NCBI GenBank assembly: GCA_002753565.1
Contig: PEAM01000006.1
Coordinates: forward strand, 1-64,000
DNA length: 64,000 bases
Source: Magnetococcales bacterium
GTDB taxonomy: Bacteria > Pseudomonadota > Magnetococcia > Magnetococcales > JADFYX01
Reading direction: 5' to 3'
In this document: positions 36,902-58,928 of the stretch, piece after piece
Layout: each line of letters opens with the position of its first letter
Numbering within the stretch: position 1 is the first letter of the stretch
The notes under the pieces: generated by a model
Told to the model about the DNA's origin: nothing
The model's database searches: none
What the model saw: only the letters and a program-made list of their open reading frames with translations
Program-made: the position numbers and the translations under genes

Positions 36902-38554
36902 TCACGGCAGATCCGTCAGGGCATTCACCAGATGAGCAGTAAGCGGCCTGTCCCGACCCCGAATGGCCAACGCCCGAACCGGACTCTCCGGCAACGAAAG
37001 CCCGCTGAGCTTGAGCGTCCGCTGGGAGACGATCAGTTGAACCCCGTTCTCCTTGGTCAATCCCTCCAGACGACTGGCGGTATTGACCACATCTCCGATG
37101 GCAGTCAACTGCTTGGCTGTACCATACCCCATCTCACCGATAATAGCTCTTCCGGTATGGATACCAACCCCGATACGCAAAGGTGACGAAAGCTCTGAGG
37201 CAAGAGAGTTGTTGAGTTTTTCTAAAGCCTCGCCCATGGCACGAGCCGCTTTCAGGCTCGCCCGAGTCGCCTGACCCACCTCACCCTCCAAGCCAAACAG
37301 AGCCATGATGCCATCGCCGATAAACTTATCCAGATACCCCCCATTTTTTTCGATGGCCTCCCCGGTTACCTGAAAATATCGGTTGAGAATAAACACCACA
37401 TCATAAGGAAAACGATCTTGGGAGAGCTGGGTAAAGCCCCGCAAATCAGCAAACAGCACCACCACATCCCGCTCTTCACCATGTCCCTTACCGTGGTTGT
37501 CGGTCACAGCCTCCGAACAGACAGTAGGCTCCAGCAGAGGATAGAGGGCAAGATCGGCAACCGGCTGAATCTGACAAGCCAGGCGCACCCCAGCCGGTGC
37601 GGCAATCCGTGACAAAGCGGCCGATTCGGTAGGGTTACGCTCGGGAATCTCCCCCTCCCCCTCCACCACGCGAACCCGGCAGGTGGTGCAACGTCCCCGA
37701 CCACCACAGAGACTGGGATGGGGAATACCAGCCAGATGAATGGTCTCCAACGCCGTGGTTCCCGGCGCAAACTTCAGCCGTCTTTTGCCGTCATAGTGAA
37801 GATTCAACCTCCCCTTGCCCCCATGGGACAGGGTAGTACGTAACCATCGGGCCACAAAGAGAGCCGCCACAAGAGCCAGCAGAGAGAGCCAGGCGGTCAT
37901 AATAGCCTGTTTGGCGACCTCATCAGCCACATCGACAAACCCAATCTGTTGGGCCAGCTGCCTCCGCCATTCAGGGTTTTCTGCCAACAGCCGGACACGC
38001 ATGCCCGCTGCCACATAGCCAGAGAAGGCCAGAGAAGGCAGCAAAATAGCCAGGCTCCCCAAGGTAAGCCGCCACCTTCCAAAGCCGGATTTCAACCGAA
38101 GCCAAGACCAAACCCCGATCACGCTATGCATCCAGACCAAAAACAGTAACAAGATTTGTACAACATTCCGTTCCGGGCTGCCCCCCCACAAAAAAGCCAG
38201 AACCGAGTGATAGTTGATGGCAATGGCATACCCCCCGATATATATCAGGGCCGGAATAAGGTGGGGAGCCAAAAAAAACGGCATGAGCAGGCCGGTAAAA
38301 AACTGGTATTTCTGCCAGGTAGGCATTCTCAAATGTCGCCGACGGTACAGACCAATCAGGGAGGTGGCCACATGGGCCACCAGCGCCGTCATCAGAAACC
38401 ACACCAAGGGGGGCTGCCCCCAAGGGTGGGTAAAATACTGAGCCCCGCTCTCTTGGGTATTTGGTGAGATAACCCCCAAGGCATGGTTGATAAAGTGCAG
38501 CGTAACAAACAGGGTCAGAAACAAACCGCTGCCAAGCCGAATGGTACCAATCAC
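36902..38554 (-). CDS. Membrane-bound class III nucleotidyl cyclase with [2Fe-2S] ferredoxin domain
   Basis: A 550-residue protein. The N-terminal part (about 1-230) has five or six helices with histidines in LFVTLHFINHALG and AYFTHPWGQP-like positions, resembling cytochrome b-like anchors. Residues about 245-335 are a plant-type ferredoxin (SLCGGRGRCTTCRVRV, later ACQIQP: C-x5-C-x2-C...C). Residues about 360-545 are a class III cyclase (VVLFADLRGFTQL, GGYLDKFIGDGIMALFG, GVGIHTGRAIIGEMG, GDVVNTASRLEGLTKE), with both metal aspartates. Redox state of the cluster probably controls cAMP or cGMP formation. Its ATG overlaps the stop of the CoA-transferase gene. Confidence 0.9.
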   Translation of the reverse strand: MIGTIRLGSGLFLTLFVTLHFINHALGVISPNTQESGAQYFTHPWGQPPLVWFLMTALVAHVATSLIGLYRRRHLRMPTWQKYQFFTGLLMPFFLAPHLIPALIYIGGYAIAINYHSVLAFLWGGSPERNVVQILLLFLVWMHSVIGVWSWLRLKSGFGRWRLTLGSLAILLPSLAFSGYVAAGMRVRLLAENPEWRRQLAQQIGFVDVADEVAKQAIMTAWLSLLALVAALFVARWLRTTLSHGGKGRLNLHYDGKRRLKFAPGTTALETIHLAGIPHPSLCGGRGRCTTCRVRVVEGEGEIPERNPTESAALSRIAAPAGVRLACQIQPVADLALYPLLEPTVCSEAVTDNHGKGHGEERDVVVLFADLRGFTQLSQDRFPYDVVFILNRYFQVTGEAIEKNGGYLDKFIGDGIMALFGLEGEVGQATRASLKAARAMGEALEKLNNSLASELSSPLRIGVGIHTGRAIIGEMGYGTAKQLTAIGDVVNTASRLEGLTKENGVQLIVSQRTLKLSGLSLPESPVRALAIRGRDRPLTAHLVNALTDLP

Positions 38555-40380
38555 AAAGTCAGCTCCAGATAGGCCTCCGTAGGATCTTCTGTCGCCACGG
38601 GGACAAAGCCTTTTTTCTTCAACACCTTCAACATGGCTTTATTCCCAACCCGAACCAGAGCAACCAACTTGGCAAGCCCTCTTGTCTGGGCAATGCCAAT
38701 CAGAGCTTGCAGCAGCTCTGCCGCCATCCCTTGTTGACGGCTGCTCTCCCGGACCACAAAGGCTACCTCGCCATAGTTACCCTTTTCTACAAAGTAATAA
38801 CGGCCAACCGCATGAATCCGCTCTTTGGGTCCCTTGCGGCGAACCAGACAGAGGGCCAAATCTTTGGTCTGATCCACATTAACCAGGGTGTAGGCCTTCT
38901 CCCGAGACATGCGATTGACCCCGGAGTTGTAGCGCATGAGCAGGGTCTCTTCGGTGTGGGAGTAGAAAAACTCCTGCAAAATCCTTTCATCGGAAGCACG
39001 CAGAGGACGCAGAACAAATTTTTTCTGTTTCAGCTTCATTTTGATCATTTCAGATTCCCCCAACTCCACCACTCGGGTAGAGCGGGCCAACTGATAGTTG
39101 GGCACCCAATAGAGGGTACGCACCTGACGCAGCAGCTCTTCTCGAAAATCGGGATGGGCCACCTGGATCAGCTCCAGTGCCCGCTCGCGAATACTCTTAC
39201 CCCGCAGGGTAGCAATGCCAAATTCGGTGACCACATAGTGTACATCACCCCGAGAGGTTACCACCCCAGAACCCTGACTGATGGAGGGTACAATGCGGGA
39301 GACCGTCCCCCCTTTTGCCGTGGCTGGCAGGGCGATGATGGGCCGACCATTCCGGCTTTGGGAGGCGCCACGGATAAAGTCAACCTGACCACCAATACCG
39401 CTATAAAGACGGCTCCCCACCGAGTCGGCAACCACCTGGCCGGAGAGATCCACCTCGATGGCACTGTTGATGGCGATCATCCGGTCATTCTGAGCAATGA
39501 TGGAGGGGTTGTTGGTATACTCTGAAGGGTGAAACTCCACATGGGGATTTTCGTGGACAAACGAATAGAGCTTTTTGGTCCCCATGCAAAACGAGGTGAT
39601 GGTTTTACCCGGATGGAGACTCTTTCGGCTGTTATCCACCACCCCCTTCTCCATCAGATCGATCAACCCATCGCTGAACATTTCGGTGTGGATGCCCAGC
39701 CGTCGATGATCCTGAAGACTTTGCAACACGGCATCGGGAATCCGACCGATGCCCATCTGCAGGGTGCTGCCATCCTCAATCAGCATGGAGACATTTCGAC
39801 CGATGCGCAGGGTAATGTCATCTTGAGGTTTGGGGGGTAGCTCGATGAGGGGTTCGTCTACCTCGATATAGGCATCAATGGAGTTGAAGGGGATAAATCC
39901 CCGCCCAAAGGTTCGAGGCATGGAGGGGTTGATCTGGGCAATCACATAGCGGGCCGAACGACAGGCCGCCGCTACGATGTCCACCGAGACACCCAGAGAA
40001 CAAAAGCCCTGCTTATCCGGTGGAGAGACCTGAATCAGGGCCACATCCAGAGGCAGAACCCCTTCGGTAAAGAGAGAGGGAATTTCCGAGAGAAAACACG
40101 GGGTATAATCGGCAATACCGCTGGCAACCGCCTCCCGAGAGCCTGCCCCGAGAAACAGAGAGTTCACCTTGAAGGCGTGACGATATTTTTCGTCGGTCCA
40201 AGGGCTCTCACCCAAGGTCAGAATATGGACCAACTCCACATCCCGAAAACGGTTGGATTGCTTCAACAATAGAGCGACCAACGCATGCGGACAGGCCGCA
40301 TTGGAACCCAGAAACACACGGGCTCCCGATTTAACATAGGGACGCCAATCACTTAATTTTTTTGGTACTTTTACAGCCAT
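38551..40380 (-). CDS. Acetyl-CoA hydrolase/CoA-transferase fused to a GNAT acetyltransferase
   Basis: A 609-residue protein. Residues about 1-430 are a class I CoA-transferase of the 4-hydroxybutyrate CoA-transferase/acetyl-CoA hydrolase type (LQMGIGRIPDAVLQSL, then GIHTEMFSDGLIDL with the catalytic Glu, then GVVTSRGDVHYVVTEFGIA). Residues about 445-609 are a GNAT domain (FVLRPLRASDERILQEFFYS, then AFVVRESSRQQGMAAELLQAL with the acetyl-CoA loop RQQGMA). I chose ATG 40380, which has an AGGAGA site. The stop overlaps the cyclase ATG, so the pair is cotranscribed. GNAT may acetylate the enzyme or partners and tie acetyl-CoA level to the cyclase; this is inferred. Confidence 0.9.
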   Translation of the reverse strand: MAVKVPKKLSDWRPYVKSGARVFLGSNAACPHALVALLLKQSNRFRDVELVHILTLGESPWTDEKYRHAFKVNSLFLGAGSREAVASGIADYTPCFLSEIPSLFTEGVLPLDVALIQVSPPDKQGFCSLGVSVDIVAAACRSARYVIAQINPSMPRTFGRGFIPFNSIDAYIEVDEPLIELPPKPQDDITLRIGRNVSMLIEDGSTLQMGIGRIPDAVLQSLQDHRRLGIHTEMFSDGLIDLMEKGVVDNSRKSLHPGKTITSFCMGTKKLYSFVHENPHVEFHPSEYTNNPSIIAQNDRMIAINSAIEVDLSGQVVADSVGSRLYSGIGGQVDFIRGASQSRNGRPIIALPATAKGGTVSRIVPSISQGSGVVTSRGDVHYVVTEFGIATLRGKSIRERALELIQVAHPDFREELLRQVRTLYWVPNYQLARSTRVVELGESEMIKMKLKQKKFVLRPLRASDERILQEFFYSHTEETLLMRYNSGVNRMSREKAYTLVNVDQTKDLALCLVRRKGPKERIHAVGRYYFVEKGNYGEVAFVVRESSRQQGMAAELLQALIGIAQTRGLAKLVALVRVGNKAMLKVLKKKGFVPVATEDPTEAYLELTL

Positions 40381-40559
40381 CACACCTTCTCCTAACCGGT
40401 CAATTTTGTCCACTTGATTATGTTGCAAATACGTCATTTTCCCCAAGCTTCAGAGCTATTTCATCACAGTATTGCGACATACTTTATGCCGAGAATACTT
40501 ATTGGGCATACTATGCAGGTACCTTATTATTTCAACCCACTGAATGGAGTTCCAAACCC

Positions 40560-40928
40560 ATGAAAAAAAGGCTCTCTCTCGTCACTTTTACCGCCGCATT
40601 CATCGGCATCACCAGTATAGCCAGCGCCGAGTGTACCGTCGACTATACACGCACCGCCTGCAAAGGTCAGGAGGCCATCTCCTACAAAAAATGTGATGGA
40701 AAACAGTCCTGTCAGAAAGTCAAAGAGGCCGACTCCCTGCATGCCTGCTGGCAAGCCGCGCTTAAATCCTGCAATAATGGTCGGTTGGATATTACCAAAT
40801 ACAAAAAGATTACCGCCACCTACAACGGCCAGCAACTGATTGGCGGACATGGTCCCATGGGAAACCCTGCAAAAAAAGGGAAAAATTTTTGTTTAAACAG
40901 CCGTCCTGACCTCAATCAGTGCCAATAG
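40560..40928 (+). CDS. Small exported cysteine-rich protein
   Basis: A 122-residue product with a signal peptide (MKKRLSLVTFTAAFIGITSI, cleavage near ASAE). The mature part has eight cysteines (first two in ECTVDYTRTACKG), suggesting disulfides in the periplasm. No match to a family that I know. ATG 40560 has a GGAG about 10 bp upstream; the frame stays open upstream but without a signal peptide. It is alone, with a strong hairpin after it. Confidence 0.78.
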   Translation: MKKRLSLVTFTAAFIGITSIASAECTVDYTRTACKGQEAISYKKCDGKQSCQKVKEADSLHACWQAALKSCNNGRLDITKYKKITATYNGQQLIGGHGPMGNPAKKGKNFCLNSRPDLNQCQ

Positions 40929-42731: not shown

Positions 42732-42807
42732 GCATTTGACAACTTCTTGGCAGACATAGACCAAGTTAGCTTGGAAACACTTCCGATCCTCAGGAGTCTA
42801 GCAATAA

Positions 42808-43035
42808 CCGAAGCTAGCCTTACCGCTCATCCTGACAGGCGTTTTTTCTATTTCTCCCGCACTGCTAGCCTTTTGGTATGGGCTCAATGCAAGAATTCCT
42901 TTTCAAAATGTCATCCATATTTGTGATTCGAAAACAAAAAAAATTTTTGTTGTGACGGCACTTCTGTGCGCAAGCACAGCTTTTGTCTCCGGCCTGTTTA
43001 TTGGTTTAGAGTTTTTGTTGTCAATCTTTACTTAG
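42808..43035 (+). pseudogene. Start-less 75-codon frame encoding two hydrophobic segments
   Basis: Between a TAA at 42805 and TAG at 43033 the frame is open for 75 codons with no ATG, GTG or TTG before late positions. The translation includes LALPLILTGVFSISPALLAFWY and KKIFVVTALLCASTAFVSGL, both membrane-like. It may be the remnant of a membrane protein gene or chance. The rest of the 42732-43046 gap shows nothing else. Confidence 0.3.
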
Positions 43036-43046
43036 AAAATGGGGAT

Positions 43047-43931
43047 TCAACGGTTCATCGCCTGGGAAGCGAAGAACAGAGTGATGGCCAGCCAGCCAAT
43101 CCAGATCATCAACAGTTGTACACCGGATAATTTGAACGCCTTTTTGGTTCGCATGGTTGCCGACTCATTTTCAAACCATTTTTTCAGAGCCTGGCTTGGG
43201 GTGGCATGATCCAGGTTAATCTGGGCAATCTCTTCATTATAGAGCGTGACATACCGCTTGAGGGTCTCGTCCAGATTCTCATCGGGTTGAAAATAGCGGC
43301 TCTGTTTGATGGCGTCGAGAAAAGAGGCAGGATCAGCGGAGATCTGCTTGAGTGTAGGGGGGGTCGGCTCAGCGAGTAAATGTTGAATATCCCATTTTTT
43401 GCAGGCCACATCAAAGGGATGTAATCCCGTCGGTTTTCTCTCCCGAGAGCCATCGGTAAAGCGTTCACTCTCTTCTGTGAGAACCCGGGTAATTTTAAAA
43501 GGGGCCACCTCCGCCAAGCGGTGCAAAAAAGCGGTTGGGGCAGTTGTTTCCAGCGTGTCGCACACCTCACAATAGACCCAATGGGTTGCCCGATCGGTGG
43601 CGATCAGGAGAGAGCGCTCTTCTTGACCATCGGTCAGGGCCGGTAGCGGTTCACTGTTCAGGTGGATAAACCCCACATCATAACTTTTAAAGGTTTGATA
43701 GTGCAGTTGGCTCTCGTCTCCCTGAGTTGAAACCTCTTTACCGGCAGCGGTTTTATGTTTCCGCAGGCAGCGAGCCAGAGCAGAGAGGGAGATGTTGGGG
43801 TGAACAAAAGCCTGAACCACCACCAACAGATCATTTAGAGGAAGCAGCAGGTTTTTGCTTAGAGCAAGGGCAATCGCCTCCTGGGTGGCCGTCAGTTCGA
43901 CACGCTCCACAGGGGAGTGGTTGTTTTCCAT
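43047..43931 (-). CDS. Catalytically dead IS481-type transposase with C-terminal membrane anchor
   Basis: A 294-residue protein homologous to the integrase-core transposases of IS481: LTATQEAIALALSKNLLLPL, ARCLRKH, then YDVGFIHLNSEPLP, IATDRATHWVYCEV, ITRVLTEESERFTDGS and YVTLYNEEIAQINLDHATPS align with conserved IS481 segments. The first catalytic Asp (normally FIHIDVK) is Asn, the second (LTDNGxEF) is Glu in TEESERF, and the segment with the third acidic residue (VERFNG) is absent. The N-terminal helix-turn-helix is missing and the protein ends in a hydrophobic helix, VQLLMIWIGWLAITLFFA. The ATG at 43931 has a GGAG site. No terminal repeats flank it. It looks like a domesticated DNA-binding or scaffold protein at the membrane. 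Confidence 0.85.
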   Translation of the reverse strand: MENNHSPVERVELTATQEAIALALSKNLLLPLNDLLVVVQAFVHPNISLSALARCLRKHKTAAGKEVSTQGDESQLHYQTFKSYDVGFIHLNSEPLPALTDGQEERSLLIATDRATHWVYCEVCDTLETTAPTAFLHRLAEVAPFKITRVLTEESERFTDGSRERKPTGLHPFDVACKKWDIQHLLAEPTPPTLKQISADPASFLDAIKQSRYFQPDENLDETLKRYVTLYNEEIAQINLDHATPSQALKKWFENESATMRTKKAFKLSGVQLLMIWIGWLAITLFFASQAMNR

Positions 43932-44287
43932 GAATTGAATCTCCAATAATCATTCGATTGATATGCCATTCTAATCTCCTCCTGCTTAGGATCAATGGAT
44001 AAAAAAAGGGTCGGTCACAGCTGTTGTTGAGAACAAGTATTATTCTCATTTACCTTTCTTGGATTTATGCTAGACTCCTGATTGTTTTTAGAAGATGAAC
44101 TGACCTCTCCTTGTCAATGAGACAAGCCACACTCTGTCGAAGGAGTGTTTGTCGTCATATTATGAGCTTATGCCAAATAGGTGCGACAACTACTGTTCCT
44201 GGGTTCAATCCTCTACAGATAAAAAGCAATGCTTTTGGTCCAACAGACCAATGTCTTTAATATTGTTATGAAACAAGGAGTCCCATA
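43932..44287. other. Intergenic region between divergent genes
   Basis: No gene is recognised. It holds a 21-bp palindrome at 44028-44048 and short inverted repeats near 44130 (CACACTC/GAGTGTT). The promoters of both neighbours must lie here. Confidence 0.6.
44028..44048. promoter_or_regulatory. 21-bp palindrome, possible operator
   Basis: TGAGAACAAGTATTATTCTCA has six-base perfect arms and AT-rich centre, resembling Fur-type sites only loosely. It lies between the dead transposase and a cytochrome gene. Confidence 0.3.
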
Positions 44288-45085
44288 ATGAAAAAAAGGT
44301 TTTTTTGGGCGCTATTGCTTGGAGCAAGCTTGGCATCTGGTTTTGCCGGGGCAGACGGTGAAAGTGGAGAAAAAAGGGGGCAGGCGGCCTCATCTGAGAG
44401 CTTGAACCATTCGGACTGGGGTATACAATCCTCTCTGGCTCGAGGGGGGCGTCTCTATGATAAGTGGTTCAAGGAGGCTGGCAAACCAACCCCCAAAGAA
44501 CTTCATCCCGCCTATCCAGCCACATCAAACTATGCCAAAAAGCCTGATAGCCATTGGCGTTGTAAAGAGTGTCATGGTTGGGACTATCAGGGAAAAGAGG
44601 GAGCTTATGCCTCTGGAAAACACTATTCCGGCATTAAAGGCATCCAAGCCATGGCTGGCAAAAAACCGGATCAAATTATCAGCCTATTAAAAAATGATAC
44701 CCATCGTCTGACTGGATTGATCTCTGAGGCAGATTTTCAAGATCTGGCTCTGTTTGTCTCTAAAGGGCAGGTGGATATGGATCAATTCATCAACCGGTCC
44801 AATAAAAAGGTAATGGGTGCCAATATTACCAAAGGAGAGGCCTACTATCAGACCATCTGTGCCAACTGCCACGGTAAAGAGGGCTGGATGATCAAGGAGA
44901 TGCCGCCACTGGGCAAAGTCTCCAATGCCAACCCCTGGGAGACCCTACATAAGATTCTTAACGGTCAGCCAATGGAAGAGATGCCAGCACTGCGGGCACT
45001 AAGCCTGGAGCCGACAAGCCGTCATATTCCCCTGGATATTCTGGCTTATATTCAGACCCTGCCCGAAGAGAAGCCAAGCAACTAA
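44288..45085 (+). CDS. Dihaem c-type cytochrome, periplasmic
   Basis: A 265-residue exported protein with a signal peptide (KRFFWALLLGASLASGFAGA). Two haem sites, C92-KEC-H and C191-ANC-H, lie about 100 residues apart; the first is preceded by SHWRCKECHGWDYQGKEGAY. This resembles a known family of cytochrome c proteins with a c-type domain of the sulfur- or tetrathionate-metabolism kind, but I cannot name it. AAGGAG lies 8 bp before ATG. It is unlike the c4-type protein at 12786. Confidence 0.88.
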   Translation: MKKRFFWALLLGASLASGFAGADGESGEKRGQAASSESLNHSDWGIQSSLARGGRLYDKWFKEAGKPTPKELHPAYPATSNYAKKPDSHWRCKECHGWDYQGKEGAYASGKHYSGIKGIQAMAGKKPDQIISLLKNDTHRLTGLISEADFQDLALFVSKGQVDMDQFINRSNKKVMGANITKGEAYYQTICANCHGKEGWMIKEMPPLGKVSNANPWETLHKILNGQPMEEMPALRALSLEPTSRHIPLDILAYIQTLPEEKPSN

Positions 45086-51116: not shown

Positions 51117-54100
51117 ATGCGTCTGTTGTTGGTTCTGTTGTTAACCCTGTTTTCCTGTGGCATGCCTCTCTCTGTTGCGGCGGCGGAACCCTTATCACTT
51201 ACAGCGGATATCCGCCATCGCCCCCCCGAGATGATTGTCGATGGCAGGTTTCAGGGCGGGCCACTCAAAACCATTCTAGAGGAGGCTGCCAACCAGATCG
51301 GTTATCAGGTCAACTGGCGATCGGTCCCCTTCTCCGCCAGCATCGAAGATCTGAGAACAGGTCTAACCGACGTGGTTCCCAGAACCATCCGCAAAGCCGA
51401 CCGAGAGGCCTATATCCAGTTTCTTGGTCCCATCCGTTCCCAGCGCAAAGAGATCCTGTTTTTGGTCCGGGCCGGCAACGAGCAGCTGATTCAAAACTAT
51501 GGTAATCTGGCCAAGCTCCGTATTGGGGTTAAATCCAAGACCGCCTATTTTTCCCAGTTTGATCAAGACACAACCCTCAACCGGGTTGTCTCGGATGGGG
51601 GAGACTACGCCCTGGCCAGACAGTTGATTGAGGGGAAGGTGGACACGGTTGTGGTGCTGGATAAAGCGGCCATGGATAGCGCCCTGGCCGGGTTGGGATT
51701 TAAAGCCTATGACTATGCCCAATATCGTCATATTCTTACCCTGGACAACTATTATGGTCTCTCCAAACACTCTGCCAACGCCCACCTTTTCGAGCCCCTG
51801 AACCGTACTCTCAAACAGATGGTAGATTCGGGTCGGGTAGAGGAGATTTTTCAAAAAAACCAACTTTCAACCCCCGAAGCCAACCGCTCTGTTACCAACC
51901 TGACTGTGGCGGAAAAACAGTGGTTGGCTGATAATCCCGGCCCTTTTCTTGTCCATAACGAGAAAGATTATCCCCCGTTCAACTATTTTGAAAACGGTCA
52001 TCCCAAGGGCTTTTCCATCGACTACATGAACCTGCTGGCCAAAAAGCTGGGCATCACCATCCAATATGTCACAGGTCCCAACTGGGAGACCTTCATGGAG
52101 CAGCTCCGGGATGGTCGCCTGGATATCATGCTCAATATTGTCAAAACAGATAAACGGTCCGACTATCTTACCTTTACCCCCCCCTATGCCGAGAGTCCCG
52201 CTGTTTTTGTCACCCGTAAGGATCGTCAGCCGGTGCGAAACTTTGACGACCTTTTTGGTAAACAGATTGCCATTCCCAAAGGCTTTTTCTATCAGGAAAT
52301 TCTAGAAAAAGAGTACCCTGAAATCCAGCTGCTGCTGACCGAAAACCTACAGGAATCCCTGCAGGCTGTGGCGGGGGGAGAGGCAGAGGCCGCTTTGGGT
52401 GGCCTGGCGATTGAAAACTGGTTGATTCAAAAATACAGCCTGACCAATTTGCGTATTGACCGGGTGGTCAGCAACCCTCTTTTTTCCAATGCGATGCATC
52501 TGGCGGTCCACAATAAAAAGGCTCTTTTAGCCGACATTCTCTCCAAAGCCTCCGCCAAGGTAACCCAAGAAGAGTACACCGCCCTGCAACGCAAATGGTT
52601 CAGTGGGAACACCAGCAGCTCTCAGGCTCAACTGACCCTGGAGGAGTTGGAGTGGATACGCCGCTTGGACGAGCCGTTACGGGTTGGTTCCGAGATGGAT
52701 TGGCCCCCGTTTGACTTTGTCGAAAACGGCCTGGCTACCGGCTTCTCCAATGAGTTGCTACGGGCGATTGCCAAGGAGGTCGGGCTACCTGTCACCTTTA
52801 TCCATGGCAACACCTGGGCGGAGATCATCCAACAGTTTGAAGCGGGAAAGCTGGATATTCTACCCGCCTTATACCGAACCCCGGAGCGGATGAAAAAGTT
52901 CCTCTATACCACCTCCTACGCCTCCAACACCTCGGTGGTGGTCATCCCCTCGAACCGCCCGGAGATACAGTCTCTCAAAGATCTGGGCAAAGGCCGGATA
53001 GCCATTGTCGAAGGGTTTGCCACCACCCAGCTTCTGACTAAACGCTTTCCTGAAATTGAGCAAGTCGATGTGTCCAATGCTCTGGACGGGCTGCGTGCGG
53101 TCTCCCTGGGCAAAGCCGACGCTTTCATCGGTAGCTATGCGGTCATCAACCACCTGCTCAAAGAGCATGTGATTCCCAACCTGCATATTCTCAGTGAGGT
53201 GTGGCTTACACAGCCGGAGGAGAGGCGACTGCACATCAGTGTTAAAAAAGAGCATCCGCTCCTGCTGAGTATTCTGCAAAAAGGGCTTAATGCCCTACCA
53301 TCGGAGAAGATTGCCACGCTACACCGTTATTGGTTGCCTATGGCATCACAGCTCAGCTCGAACCACCAACAGGTTGACCTCACCTCAGCCGAAAAACGCT
53401 GGCTCAAAGAGCATCCCATACTGCGCCTGGGCGACGATTTTAGCTGGCGCCCCTTCTCCTTTCTCGATAAGGAGGGAAAACACAGTGGCATCAGCGCCGG
53501 ATATGCTCAAGCCTTTTCTGATCGGCTGGAGTTGATCTTCCGGCCGGTTGTGGGGCTGAAGTGGGATGAGGTAATTGCGGGGATTAAAAATCGTGAGTTG
53601 GACATTGTTCCGGCTGTGGTTCGCACCCCAGAGCGAGATGAGTTCATGCTGTTCACCAAACCCTATCTCACCTTCCCGGTGGTCATTGCCACCCGCAAAA
53701 ACAGCCCCTTTGTCGACCATCTGGATAACCTTGTTGGTAAACGGGTCGGGGTGGTCAAAGGGTATGCCATCGAAACCGTGTTGCGGAAGAAACACCCCAA
53801 ACTCAACCTGATGACCGCCCCCACCATTGAAGAGGGGTTAAAACAGTTGGATGAGGGAGATACGGACGCTTTTGTTGATAATCTGGGGGCCATCACCTAT
53901 GAGATGGAGCGGTCTGCCATAGGCAACGTTAAAATAGCCGCCCCAACCTCCTACCAGTTTGATGTCTCCTTTGGCGTTCGAAAAGATTGGCCGGAGTTGG
54001 TCACCATCCTCAACAAAGCTCTGGACTCTTTAAAACCGGCCGACCGGGCTGCCATCAAAAACACCTGGATGGCGGTGACGGTCCAGTTTGGTACCGATTT

Positions 54101-57100
54101 AACCACCATTCTTATCTGGGCGGTCCCCATCGGGTCGGGCCTGTTTCTGGTCTTGGGGCTGATCCTCTTCTGGAACCGCAAAATGGGACGGGAGATCGAA
54201 CAGCGCCGACAGGTTGAGCGGGAGATGCGAAAATTGACCCTGGCGGTGGAAAAAAGCCCCTCAGTGGTGATCATCACCGACCCGGAGGGTCGGTTTGAGT
54301 ATGTAAACCCCCGTTTTGTTGAGGTAACCGGCTACACCCAGGATGAGCTGCAGGGGAAGACCACCCAAATTCTCGACTCAGGCAAGACCCCTGAAGAGAC
54401 CTTCAAAGAGATGTGGCAGACCATCTCGGCTGGCCATATCTGGCGCGGGGAGATTATCAACCGCAAAAAAAATGGCGATCTCTACTGGGCTTCTGTCTCC
54501 ATCAGCCCGATTTTGGTGGAAGGGAACATTGTCAATTTCATCTCTCTTCAAGAAGATGTAACAGAACAAAAACGCAGTGCCGAAGCGATCAAAGAGCGTG
54601 AAGAGCGGCTAAACCTGGTTCTCAAGGGGGGAGATCTGGGCTTTTGGGATGTCAACCTGGATAGCGGCCTTACGGTGGTCAATCAGCGCTATTCGGACAT
54701 TTTTGGTTTTCCCATGAACACCATGGAGGGACAGCAGAGCCAGTGGCTTGAGCGGTTGCATCCAGAGGATAAAGAGCGAGTATTAGAGACAGGAAAACTG
54801 TATCGAACCGGTGTGTTGGATGACTATGAGATAGAGTATCGCATTATTACCGAGGAGGGAGAAGAGAAATGGGTCATCTCCAAGGGGGCCGCTGTCTCCT
54901 GGGGAGAAGATGGTACGGCTCAGCGTATGGTCGGCACCGTACAGGATGTGACGGAGCGCAAAACCATGGAGGCGGCCCTGGCCGAGTCGGACGAGCGCAG
55001 CCGACTGATTCTCTCTTCGGTAACCGACGGTATTTTTGGGCTGGATCTGGAAGGAAAGACCACCTTTGTCAACCCGGCTGCCACCCAACTGCTGGGTTTT
55101 TCGGAAGAGGAGATGGTGGGGCAAGCCATGCACGACAAAGTGCATCACAGCTACCCGAATGGCACACCCTATCCCAAAGAGGATTGCCACATGCGGGCCG
55201 CCTTCCAAAAAGGGCAGCTCAGCCAGATCAGCGATGAGGTGCTCTGGTGCCAGGACGGAAGCAGCCTGCCGGTCGAGTACAGCGCGGTCCCCATGCACAA
55301 AAAAGGGGAGCGGGTTGGGGCGGTGGTGGTCTTTCGGGATATCCGGGAGAGGCTCAAGGCCGAAGCTCGACTGCGTGCGCGGGAGCAGGAGTTCCGCACC
55401 CTGATAGAGTCGGCCCCGGACGCCATGGTGATTGCCGATGAGCAGGGCATCATCAAAATGGTCAACCGCCAAACCGAACAGCTGTTTGGCTACAAGCGGG
55501 AGGAGATGCTGGAACAGCCGGTCGAAATGCTCATTCCCCAGCAGTTTCAGCAGGCCCATCCCAAGCAGAGGGCCTCCTATCAAGAGAACCCCAACGCCCG
55601 GCCCATGGGGGGCAATCAAGAGCTGGCAGCCCTGACCAAAGCGGGCAAGCAGGTTCCGGTAGAGATCTCCCTAAGCCCCATCAAAACAGAACAGGGGCTG
55701 ATGATTGCCAGCTCGCTGCGGGATATTTCCGCTCGCAAAGCGGCGGATGAAAAAATTCGAGAGGGGAATCAGGCCAAGGCTCGGGTTGAAGAGGTAGAAC
55801 GGTTCAACCGGCTGGCACTGGATAGAGAGACCCGAATTCTAGAGCTTAAAGAGCAGGTAAACGCTCTCTTCCTCCAGACCGGTCAGGAGATCCCCTATCC
55901 GGTAGCCGGACCAGAGAACCAACCCACAGAAGAGATTCTTGCTTCGCCAGGGGAGGAGAGATCGGAAGAGGAGGAGAAGCCGCAGATATCCCATTTGATG
56001 GACCTGGCCCAGATGCAAAAGCTGCTGGATAACTACTGCAACTCTGTCGAAATTGCCTCTGCCATTATCGATCTGGAGGGGAATATTCTGGCGGCCTCCC
56101 GTTGGCAGAGGGCCTGTACCGATTTTCACCGAGCCAAAGAGAGTAGCTGCGCCCGCTGTATCGAGAGCGATACCGAGCTATCTCTCAAGCTGGATGAGGG
56201 GGCGAGCTTTACCCTCTACTCCTGTAAGAATGGCCTCACCGATTGTGCCGCCCCCATTGTCATCAACGGCGAGCATCTGGCCAACGTCTTTATTGGTCAA
56301 TTTTTACTTAAAACCCCCGACATGACCTTTTTCCGCCACCAATCGGAACAGTTTGGCTACGACACCGATGATTATCTTCAGGCCATTGGCGATGTCCCTA
56401 TCATAGAAGAGGACAAACTACCGGATATACTCAGCTTTTTAAGCGGATTTTCCCAGATGGTCGCCAACCTTTCTCTAGAGAGATATCGAGCTGGTCGGGC
56501 CGAGGATGCCATCAGCCGTCGAGCCAAGGATCTTCAAGAGGAGCGGATTGCCGCCATGAGTCTGGCTGAAGATGCCCAGCAGGCCCGTGCAGAGATTCGC
56601 CGCCATCAGGAACATCTGGAGCAACTGGTAGAAGAGCGAACCGCCGACCTGACCCAGAGTCAGGCGCATCTGGCCAAAGCCAAAGAGGTGGCCGAGGAGG
56701 CCAACCAGGCCAAGTCAGACTTTTTAGCCAACATGAGCCATGAGATCCGCACCCCCATGAACGCCATCATCGGCATGAGCTACCTGGCCTTGGGGACCGA
56801 GCTAACCAGCCGACAGCGCAACTATATTCAAAAAGTCAACCGCTCGGCGGAGTCTCTTCTGGGCATCATCAACGATATTCTCGATTTTTCCAAGATTGAA
56901 GCGGGAAAAATGGATATGGAGTCCATCGACTTCCGCATGGAAGATGTCTTGGATAATCTGGCCAATCTGGTGGGACTCAAAGCCGAGGAAAAAGGGGTAG
57001 AGCTGCTGTTTGACACCGACGCCGATGCCCCCATGGCCCTGATTGGCGACCCTCTGCGGCTGGGACAGATCTTGACCAACCTGGGTAACAATGCGGTTAA

Positions 57101-58928
57101 ATTTACCGATAACGGACAGATTGTCGTCTCCTCCCAAATGGAACAGAGCCACGACGGCAGCGCCCTGTTCCATTTTAGCGTGCGAGATTCTGGCATCGGC
57201 ATGACCCCCGAGCAGCAGAGCAAGCTGTTCCAATCGTTCTCTCAGGCCGACAGCTCCACCTCGCGCAAATATGGCGGAACCGGTTTGGGGTTGACCATAT
57301 CCAAACGGCTGACGGAGATGATGGGGGGCAAAATTTGGGTCGAGAGTGAAGCCGGCGTCGGCAGCACCTTCCACTTTACCGTCAACCTGGGCATTCAGTC
57401 CAACCCTGAAGAGCGCCAGATCATCAACCGGGAAGAGCTGGTTGATCTACGGGTATTGGTGGTCGATGACAACGCCTTTGCTCGGGAGATTCTCTCCACC
57501 ATGGCGGTCAGTTTTGGCATGGAGGTGGATGTGGTCCCCAACGGCAAGGAGGCCTTGGTGGCGGTTCGTCAGGCTGTCGACCAGAAAATCCCCTACGACA
57601 TTGTCTTCATGGATTGGCTCATGCCGGGCATGGATGGTATCGAGTGTATTAAAAATATGAAACAGGAGATGCATCAGGAGACCCCGTCGGTCATCATGGT
57701 CACCGCCTACGGGCGAGAGGAGGCCATGCAGAGCGCCAACGACAAACAGATTACGGTCAACTCTATCCTCACCAAGCCGGTCACCCCCTCCTCTTTGCTG
57801 GATGCCATCGGAGAGACCCTGGGACGAGGCGTGGTACGCAACAATGGCAAGGCGGCGGCGGCCAACGACCATTCGGAAGCGCTGAACCATCTGCGAGGGG
57901 CGCACCTGCTGTTGGTAGACGACAATGAGATCAATCAGGAGCTGGCTCTGGAGCTGTTTGCCAATGGTGGCCTGACGGCTACATCGGCTTCTAACGGTCA
58001 GATCGCCCTGGATAAGTTGAAATCTGGGGAAGTATTTGATGGGGTGTTGATGGATATCCAGATGCCGGTGATGGATGGCTACACCGCCACACGGGCCATT
58101 CGTCAACTGCCCCATTTTAAAGATCTGCCGGTGATTGCCATGACCGCCAATGTCATGTCTGGGGATCTGGAAAAGGCCGCCGAAGCAGGCATGAACGACC
58201 ATATCGGCAAGCCGATCAATGTGCGAGAGATGTTCCTTACCATGGCCAAGTGGATTACGCCAGCCAACCCGGTTGATGCGCCAGAACCATTGGCTTCAGA
58301 GTCTGAAGCCAGCGCAGCAGAGGAACCTTTTCCGCCGCTTGAGGGTATTGAGGTTGAGGAGGGGCTGGCTCGGATTGGTGGCAACGCCAAATCCTATCGC
58401 AAGCTGCTTAAAAAGTTCTACAGCAACCAGGAGGGGGTTCCCGAACAGATTATCTCGGCTCTGGAGCAGGAGGACAGCCTGTTGGCGGAACGGCTGGCCC
58501 ACACCCTGAAGGGGGTAGCCGGGAGCATCGGTGCAACCGCACTGCAGGGGGTTTCTGCCTCCCTGGAGAAGGCCATACGGGAGGGAGAACAGGCGGTGGT
58601 CGACGCTCTGCTGCCGGAGGCCACCAGCAAGCTGGAACAGGTCAGGGATGCCATCGCCACCCTGGAGGCTGAACCGGCCAAGGGTGAAGCGGTTCAAAAC
58701 AGAGTCGACCTTGCTACCCTGATGCCGGCGCTGGATCTTCTTCAAGAGCGGCTGGAGGAGGATGATATTGAGGCGGCTGAAAGGGTTGAAACAATTCTGG
58801 AGCAGCTGACAGGAACCCCGTTGGCCTCCCATTTGCAAAAAATTGAGGCGGCGATAAGTGGCTACGATTTTGATGAGGCTTTGTCCCAGTTGGCCCAGTT
58901 GAAAGAGAGCTTGGCAAGCCACACCTGA
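51117..58928 (+). CDS. Giant hybrid sensor kinase with four periplasmic solute-binding domains
   Basis: A 2603-residue protein. Order: signal peptide (1-23); four SBP_bac_3-like domains (about 25-250, 265-500, 505-745, 755-990), each preceded by a linker such as [18 protein letters not shown] or [20 protein letters not shown] (about 996-1017); four PAS domains (about 1040-1550); a PocR-type ligand domain (about 1626-1790, CARCIE and [16 protein letters not shown]); coiled coil; HisKA with His1875 ([15 protein letters not shown]); HATPase; two receiver domains (Asp2166, Asp2313); HPt with His2462. It is built like the BvgS/EvgS group but with twice the usual number of Venus-flytrap domains. 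Start ATG 51117 has a GGAG site. Confidence 0.93.

Follow-up and report, generated by a model that had tools for sequence, protein, structure and literature searches.

A domesticated IS481 transposase with a predicted C-terminal membrane anchor in Magnetococcia

Positions 43047–43931 of the window (the whole stretch of 64,000 nucleotides from a Magnetococcales bacterium that was analyzed here) raise the question of what a relative of IS481 transposases does in a genome that contains one copy of it and no other IS481-like gene. An earlier note, made from the DNA letters alone, had described the product as a domesticated transposase with a membrane anchor and had suggested a new host function, such as tethering DNA to the membrane. 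The reading frame is intact and uninterrupted over all 294 codons, and it possesses the normal start and ribosome-binding site claimed in that note (ATG at 43931, GGAG with a 9-base spacing; Table 1).

Table 1. Positions in the window of the gene, of the encoded protein features and of the flanking repeat
Feature	Position	Strand	Remarks
Domesticated IS481 transposase gene (strongly supported)	43047..43931	-	294 aa; ATG at 43931, stop at 43047; catalytically dead, tail-anchored (predicted)
GGAG ribosome-binding site	43941..43944	-	9 bases between GGAG and ATG 43931
Second helix-turn-helix (HTH), residues 15-58, three helices	43758..43889	-	AlphaFold helices 15-28, 32-42, 49-58; IS481 alignment
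RNase H/integrase core, residues 83-248, dead, acidic, net -11	43188..43685	-	
Codon N92, replacing catalytic D1	43656..43658	-	N in 5/5 orthologs, D in 5/5 IS481s
Codon E153, replacing catalytic D2	43473..43475	-	L or I in three orthologs
Codon A199, catalytic E3 column	43335..43337	-	NGMVERFN motif lost
Codons SGVQL (269-273)	43113..43127	-	align with IS481 right inverted-repeat end, PG-P/L/C-N/D-T/S/I
TTG (Leu274), putative site of ancestral TAG/TAA stop from target-site duplication	43110..43112	-	inferred from alignment
Predicted C-terminal transmembrane helix (tail anchor), residues 270-292	43056..43124	-	KK..K just before helix
Inverted repeat, left arm	42790..42813	+	16 nt match to dispersed MITE-like end (AGGAGTCTAGCAATAA)
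Inverted repeat, right arm	44058..44081	-	AGGAGTCTAGCA

Relationship to IS481 transposases

The NCBIfam model of IS481 transposases (NF033577) matches the 294-aa protein with an E-value of 8e-22 over profile positions 56–283 of 284, which bears out the clear homology claimed earlier; the score of 78 bits is below the cut-off of 224 bits, i.e. the protein is homologous to the family but falls short of its threshold. All five orthologs described below match the same model, and the multi-copy element of genome G039 exceeds the cut-off (251 bits). A Pfam search with the 294-aa protein returned nothing significant, and a sequence search of the PDB found no relatives. The catalytic columns were read from an alignment of the five orthologs with five IS481 transposases, including that of G039. 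The D1 column is occupied by N in all five orthologs, the D2 column by E, L, I, L and E, and E3 with its NGMVERFN motif is absent from all of them (among the comparison sequences, G039 has K at E3). The loss of all three catalytic acids relative to the IS481 enzymes (D1 to N92, D2 to E153, the E3 column to A199) was therefore read correctly in the earlier note, and the DDE triad required of a functional IS481 transposase is absent in five orthologs of five. In the AlphaFold model, which is of moderate quality (pLDDT 66), the best structural matches of the core in the PDB are retroviral integrases and IstA (E-values down to 5e-9), and the integrase-type RNase H fold appears to be retained despite the dead triad.

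Two further claims stood in part. Of the two N-terminal HTH segments of IS481 transposases only the second remains, so that the reported HTH loss applies to the first (about 55 residues), while residues 15–58 are kept and well conserved. TGT..ACA inverted repeats with a target-site duplication were not found around the gene, nor was an IS481 left end; the codons of the tail, on the other hand, align with the IS481 right end. In the absence of IS481 ends the gene is presumably immobile. The sole inverted repeat that brackets it belongs to a different family: its 24-nt arms lie 1,244 nt apart (1,292 bp overall, 42790–44081), and the arm motif, which has ten sites in the genome compared to one for a reversed control, corresponds to the ends of MITE-like elements of 125–159 bp. 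Such an inverted pair arose in 4 of 300 mononucleotide shuffles. No target duplication was seen at the repeat, which is absent from the gene loci of the other species, and its resemblance to this dispersed family led us to reject it as a pair of IS481 ends. It may mark how the gene reached its present, non-syntenic position, and 42790–44081 could be a passenger cassette by which the gene was relocated in this species. The MITE-like family itself (ends AGGAGTCTAGCAATAATAACTTG) has about ten end-like sites, e.g. G000:C78:4686-4848 (L091) and G000:C75:82415 (L090), and no transposase was recognized by eye in the stretches read.

Orthologs, selection and the origin of the tail

Among 48 Magnetococcia species (class and order coincide in this sample) orthologs are present in five genomes, one full copy each, as a test proposed in the earlier note had called for. 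Four of them belong to the five genomes of the same genus, the other three carriers being 48–50% identical to the protein studied here; the fifth, G012, comes from a different family (32–33% identity), and its placement relative to the genus was not resolved at depth in a RecN tree. A profile built from the five orthologs found no sixth member in the 48 genomes, and a scan of 84,980 species returned only three of those already known, all from Magnetococcales MAGs. In a sample of 399 genomes of the phylum the five orthologs extend to profile position 290–291, whereas all other matches end at 271 or earlier, short of the tail. The viral contigs searched gave no match, and the plasmid matches listed are mostly annotated IS481 copies, all below 60% identity. 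One of the plasmid matches, on Serratia pK17-KPC, reaches residue 293 but was rejected, as it has stop codons and resembles a disrupted IS copy. The orthologs form a separate clade (support 98/97) in a tree that includes five IS481 transposases.

For three pairs (G001, G003, G004) dN/dS of the gene is 0.11–0.18 (NG86), far from one and indicative of purifying selection; it is close to that of the adjacent cytochrome (0.15–0.19) and somewhat above that of the neighboring Crp gene (0.05–0.09), all these values being rough since dS (0.9–2.2) is measurable but near saturation. Ratios of about 0.1–0.2, similar to those of neighboring genes, indicate domestication rather than decay. Identity between the close orthologs is highest in the pre-anchor and tail (82–87%), followed by the second HTH (73–76%), the core (61–73%) and the linker (48–57%), which marks the anchor as a part under selection. 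Single-copy orthologs and shared losses of mobility features across five species, together with purifying selection, are the marks of a domesticated transposase gene, and there is strong support for regarding the gene as a domesticated IS481 transposase of a small Magnetococcia branch.

The C-terminal transmembrane helix reported in the earlier note is well predicted: hydrophobicity peaks at residue 270 (KD19 1.96; 1.96–2.33 in the five orthologs), the AlphaFold model has a helix at residues 270–292, and the same helix is predicted in all five orthologs. A single such helix, preceded by a K-rich segment and followed by a short tail, is what the sequence of a C-tail-anchored inner-membrane protein would be expected to contain. 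Domestication, which is well supported, and membrane anchoring, which is strongly predicted, are taken together very probable.

Related IS481 elements suggest where the tail came from. The four copies of the G039 element share sequence from TGTAAAATCCCGG to CCGGGACCCAACA, and the stop codon of its ORF (TAG) lies just outside the element, in a flanking CCTAGC that is duplicated at the left. Likewise, G281 has GTTAGT on both sides, with the TAG stop inside the target-site duplication, G224 has GCTAAC on both sides, with a TAA stop in the same place, and the ISRe46 ORF also takes its stop codon from the target-site duplication (PMC6794481). The ORFs of such elements would thus cross the right inverted repeat and terminate only in duplicated host DNA. 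A gapless alignment pairs their C-terminus (PG-P/L/C-N/D-T/S/I-stop) with SGVQLL of the genus, the TAG of PGPNT* being replaced by TTG or CTG, although this relic of the IS border is short and its similarity at the codon level is modest. The transmembrane helix starts directly at the former IS/host border, so that read-through into host DNA was probably its source; loss of the borrowed stop, extension of the ORF and acquisition of a hydrophobic tail would be the simplest origin of the anchor. Since the G012 tail shares W280, F287, A288 and S289 with the genus, a single capture event probably accounts for all five orthologs. Stop-less IS481 ORFs could be a natural fusion device, able to capture C-terminal segments encoded by the host.

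Gene neighborhood and possible function

In three species the gene order is rhodanese, triheme cytochrome, the gene studied here, a Crp/Fnr regulator (reverse), a pentapeptide-like protein and nir genes (heme d1). The triheme cytochrome (c'-like, with CXXCH motifs) is the direct upstream neighbor, and the gene follows it after 50–60 bp on the same strand. In the present genome the gene is isolated, with a different c-type cytochrome (44288–45085) lying divergent to it; in G012 its divergent neighbor encodes a small, secreted Cys-rich protein. The triheme cytochrome is unlinked to the gene in both of these genomes. The distribution of this cytochrome is nevertheless identical to that of the gene (the same 5 of 48 genomes), and both are missing from G002, which is nested in the genus according to RecN and has a nir/Crp locus with neither of them. 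A naive calculation (1 in C(48,5)) puts the chance of this coincidence below 1e-6, but the independent events behind it are few, with four of the five genomes from one genus and the genes adjacent in three. Because a single deletion in that genus could remove both genes, the link is only suggestive.

Other candidate partners were rejected: the nir cluster is too widespread (29 of 48 genomes above the cut-off), and the rhodanese differs from the gene in distribution. The secreted Cys-rich protein (40560–40928, 122 aa, no Pfam family), which is close to the gene here and adjoins it in G012, is non-specific (23 of the 48 Magnetococcia genomes). A role in a defense system was dismissed, as PADLOC gave no convincing match. 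Three species encode a fusion of 907–911 aa (L025:4863-7589) composed of radical-SAM NirJ-like, cytochrome c and cytochrome d1 domains, whose counterparts in this genome are split between two ORFs (L096 11949-13502 and 13489-14637). In the window, inspection by eye suggested an ORF in which an acetyl-CoA hydrolase/transferase-like domain precedes a GNAT-like acetyltransferase domain (38551–40446) and a hybrid sensor kinase of 2,603 aa that contains PAS-like domains and several repeats of a solute-binding-like type (51117–58928).

We propose, with a probability of roughly 0.55, that this domesticated IS481 transposase gene acquired its tail by read-through and now encodes a membrane adaptor linked to cytochrome respiration. 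The protein would be held at the inner membrane on its cytoplasmic side, with its N-terminus inside and the lysines before the helix, and would act as a protein-binding adaptor or scaffold rather than as a DNA enzyme or a DNA tether. Its likeliest partners would belong to (anaerobic) respiration via c-type cytochromes, which we propose because the triheme cytochrome has the same distribution and precedes the gene beside the nir cluster in three species. The adaptor role tied to cytochrome respiration, taken by itself, is our best guess at about even odds; that the stop-less IS481 route yielded a tail-anchored, dead integrase-fold adaptor that forms part of a cytochrome-based respiratory system is a more speculative suggestion.

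Of the new host function claimed in the earlier note, the domestication with an anchor has held up, while the tethering of DNA is disfavored. A retained HTH could bind DNA, or a promoter, which the tail would then keep at the membrane, so that the protein would be a tether or a membrane-bound regulator, and the conservation of the second HTH in close orthologs, its recognition helix, which is still basic (+4) in this species, and the conserved anchor would all agree with this. However, in every one of the five orthologs a formerly basic core is now acidic (net charge -7 to -11, compared to +3 to +10 in IS481 transposases), which speaks against a DNA-binding core; the pI of the whole protein has dropped from 9.7–9.9 to about 6–7, the recognition helix has gone from +2 to +4 in IS481 to -1 to +1 in four of the five, and the first HTH is missing. 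The second HTH may still bind DNA to some extent, in this species above all, but we regard a tether or regulator as unlikely. Slightly less likely still is a membrane role unrelated to respiration, for instance in envelope or organelle scaffolding, with the cytochrome match a coincidence of shared ancestry: the unlinked genes in two of five genomes and the paucity of independent events would permit it, but the match is perfect over 48 genomes and includes the joint absence in G002 inside the genus.

Dead transposase fragments can poison an active transposase, and a dead, membrane-held subunit might in the same way mix with an active IS481 enzyme and repress transposition. Four of the five host genomes have no IS481-like match other than the gene itself (G012 adds two short fragments), which would agree with this, yet most other Magnetococcia genomes are also free of IS481 without possessing the gene, the charged surfaces have changed, and the host genomes contain no active IS481 left to repress, all of which makes this role improbable. 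A decaying IS remnant with a frame open by chance would account for the missing catalytic residues and IS481 ends, but is effectively ruled out by the low dN/dS and by orthologs in five species that share the open frame, the architecture and the conserved tail down to about 30% identity.

Comparison with known systems

Few domesticated transposases have been described in bacteria, and both RAYT and TldR still act on nucleic acids; in the open-licence literature we found no membrane-anchored example. If our reading is true, a dead, acidic and membrane-anchored transposase under selection would represent a route out of DNA chemistry, and the stop-less ORF would provide a concrete and testable origin for such fusions wherever IS481 elements occur. 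With IS481 transposases (NF033577; the multi-copy element of G039, ISRe46 in PMC6794481) the protein shares homology over most of its length, the second HTH and the integrase-type core, and related ORFs of that family have their stop supplied by the target-site duplication; unlike them, it has lost all three catalytic acids as well as the first HTH, and has an acidic core, a membrane tail and a single copy. TnpA-REP/RAYT proteins (PMC8266576) are likewise transposase derivatives retained by the host, but they are active enzymes of another class that process REP DNA, whereas this protein is a dead DDE-type with a predicted membrane anchor. TldR (PMC13418256), a TnpB-derived RNA-guided transcription factor, is also an exapted transposon nuclease without catalysis; it acts by binding DNA, whereas here the DNA-binding features are weakened and a membrane anchor has apparently been gained. 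Finally, the retroviral integrase and IstA structures in the PDB, which the predicted core resembles most closely, are active enzymes of about 13% identity that have no membrane tail.
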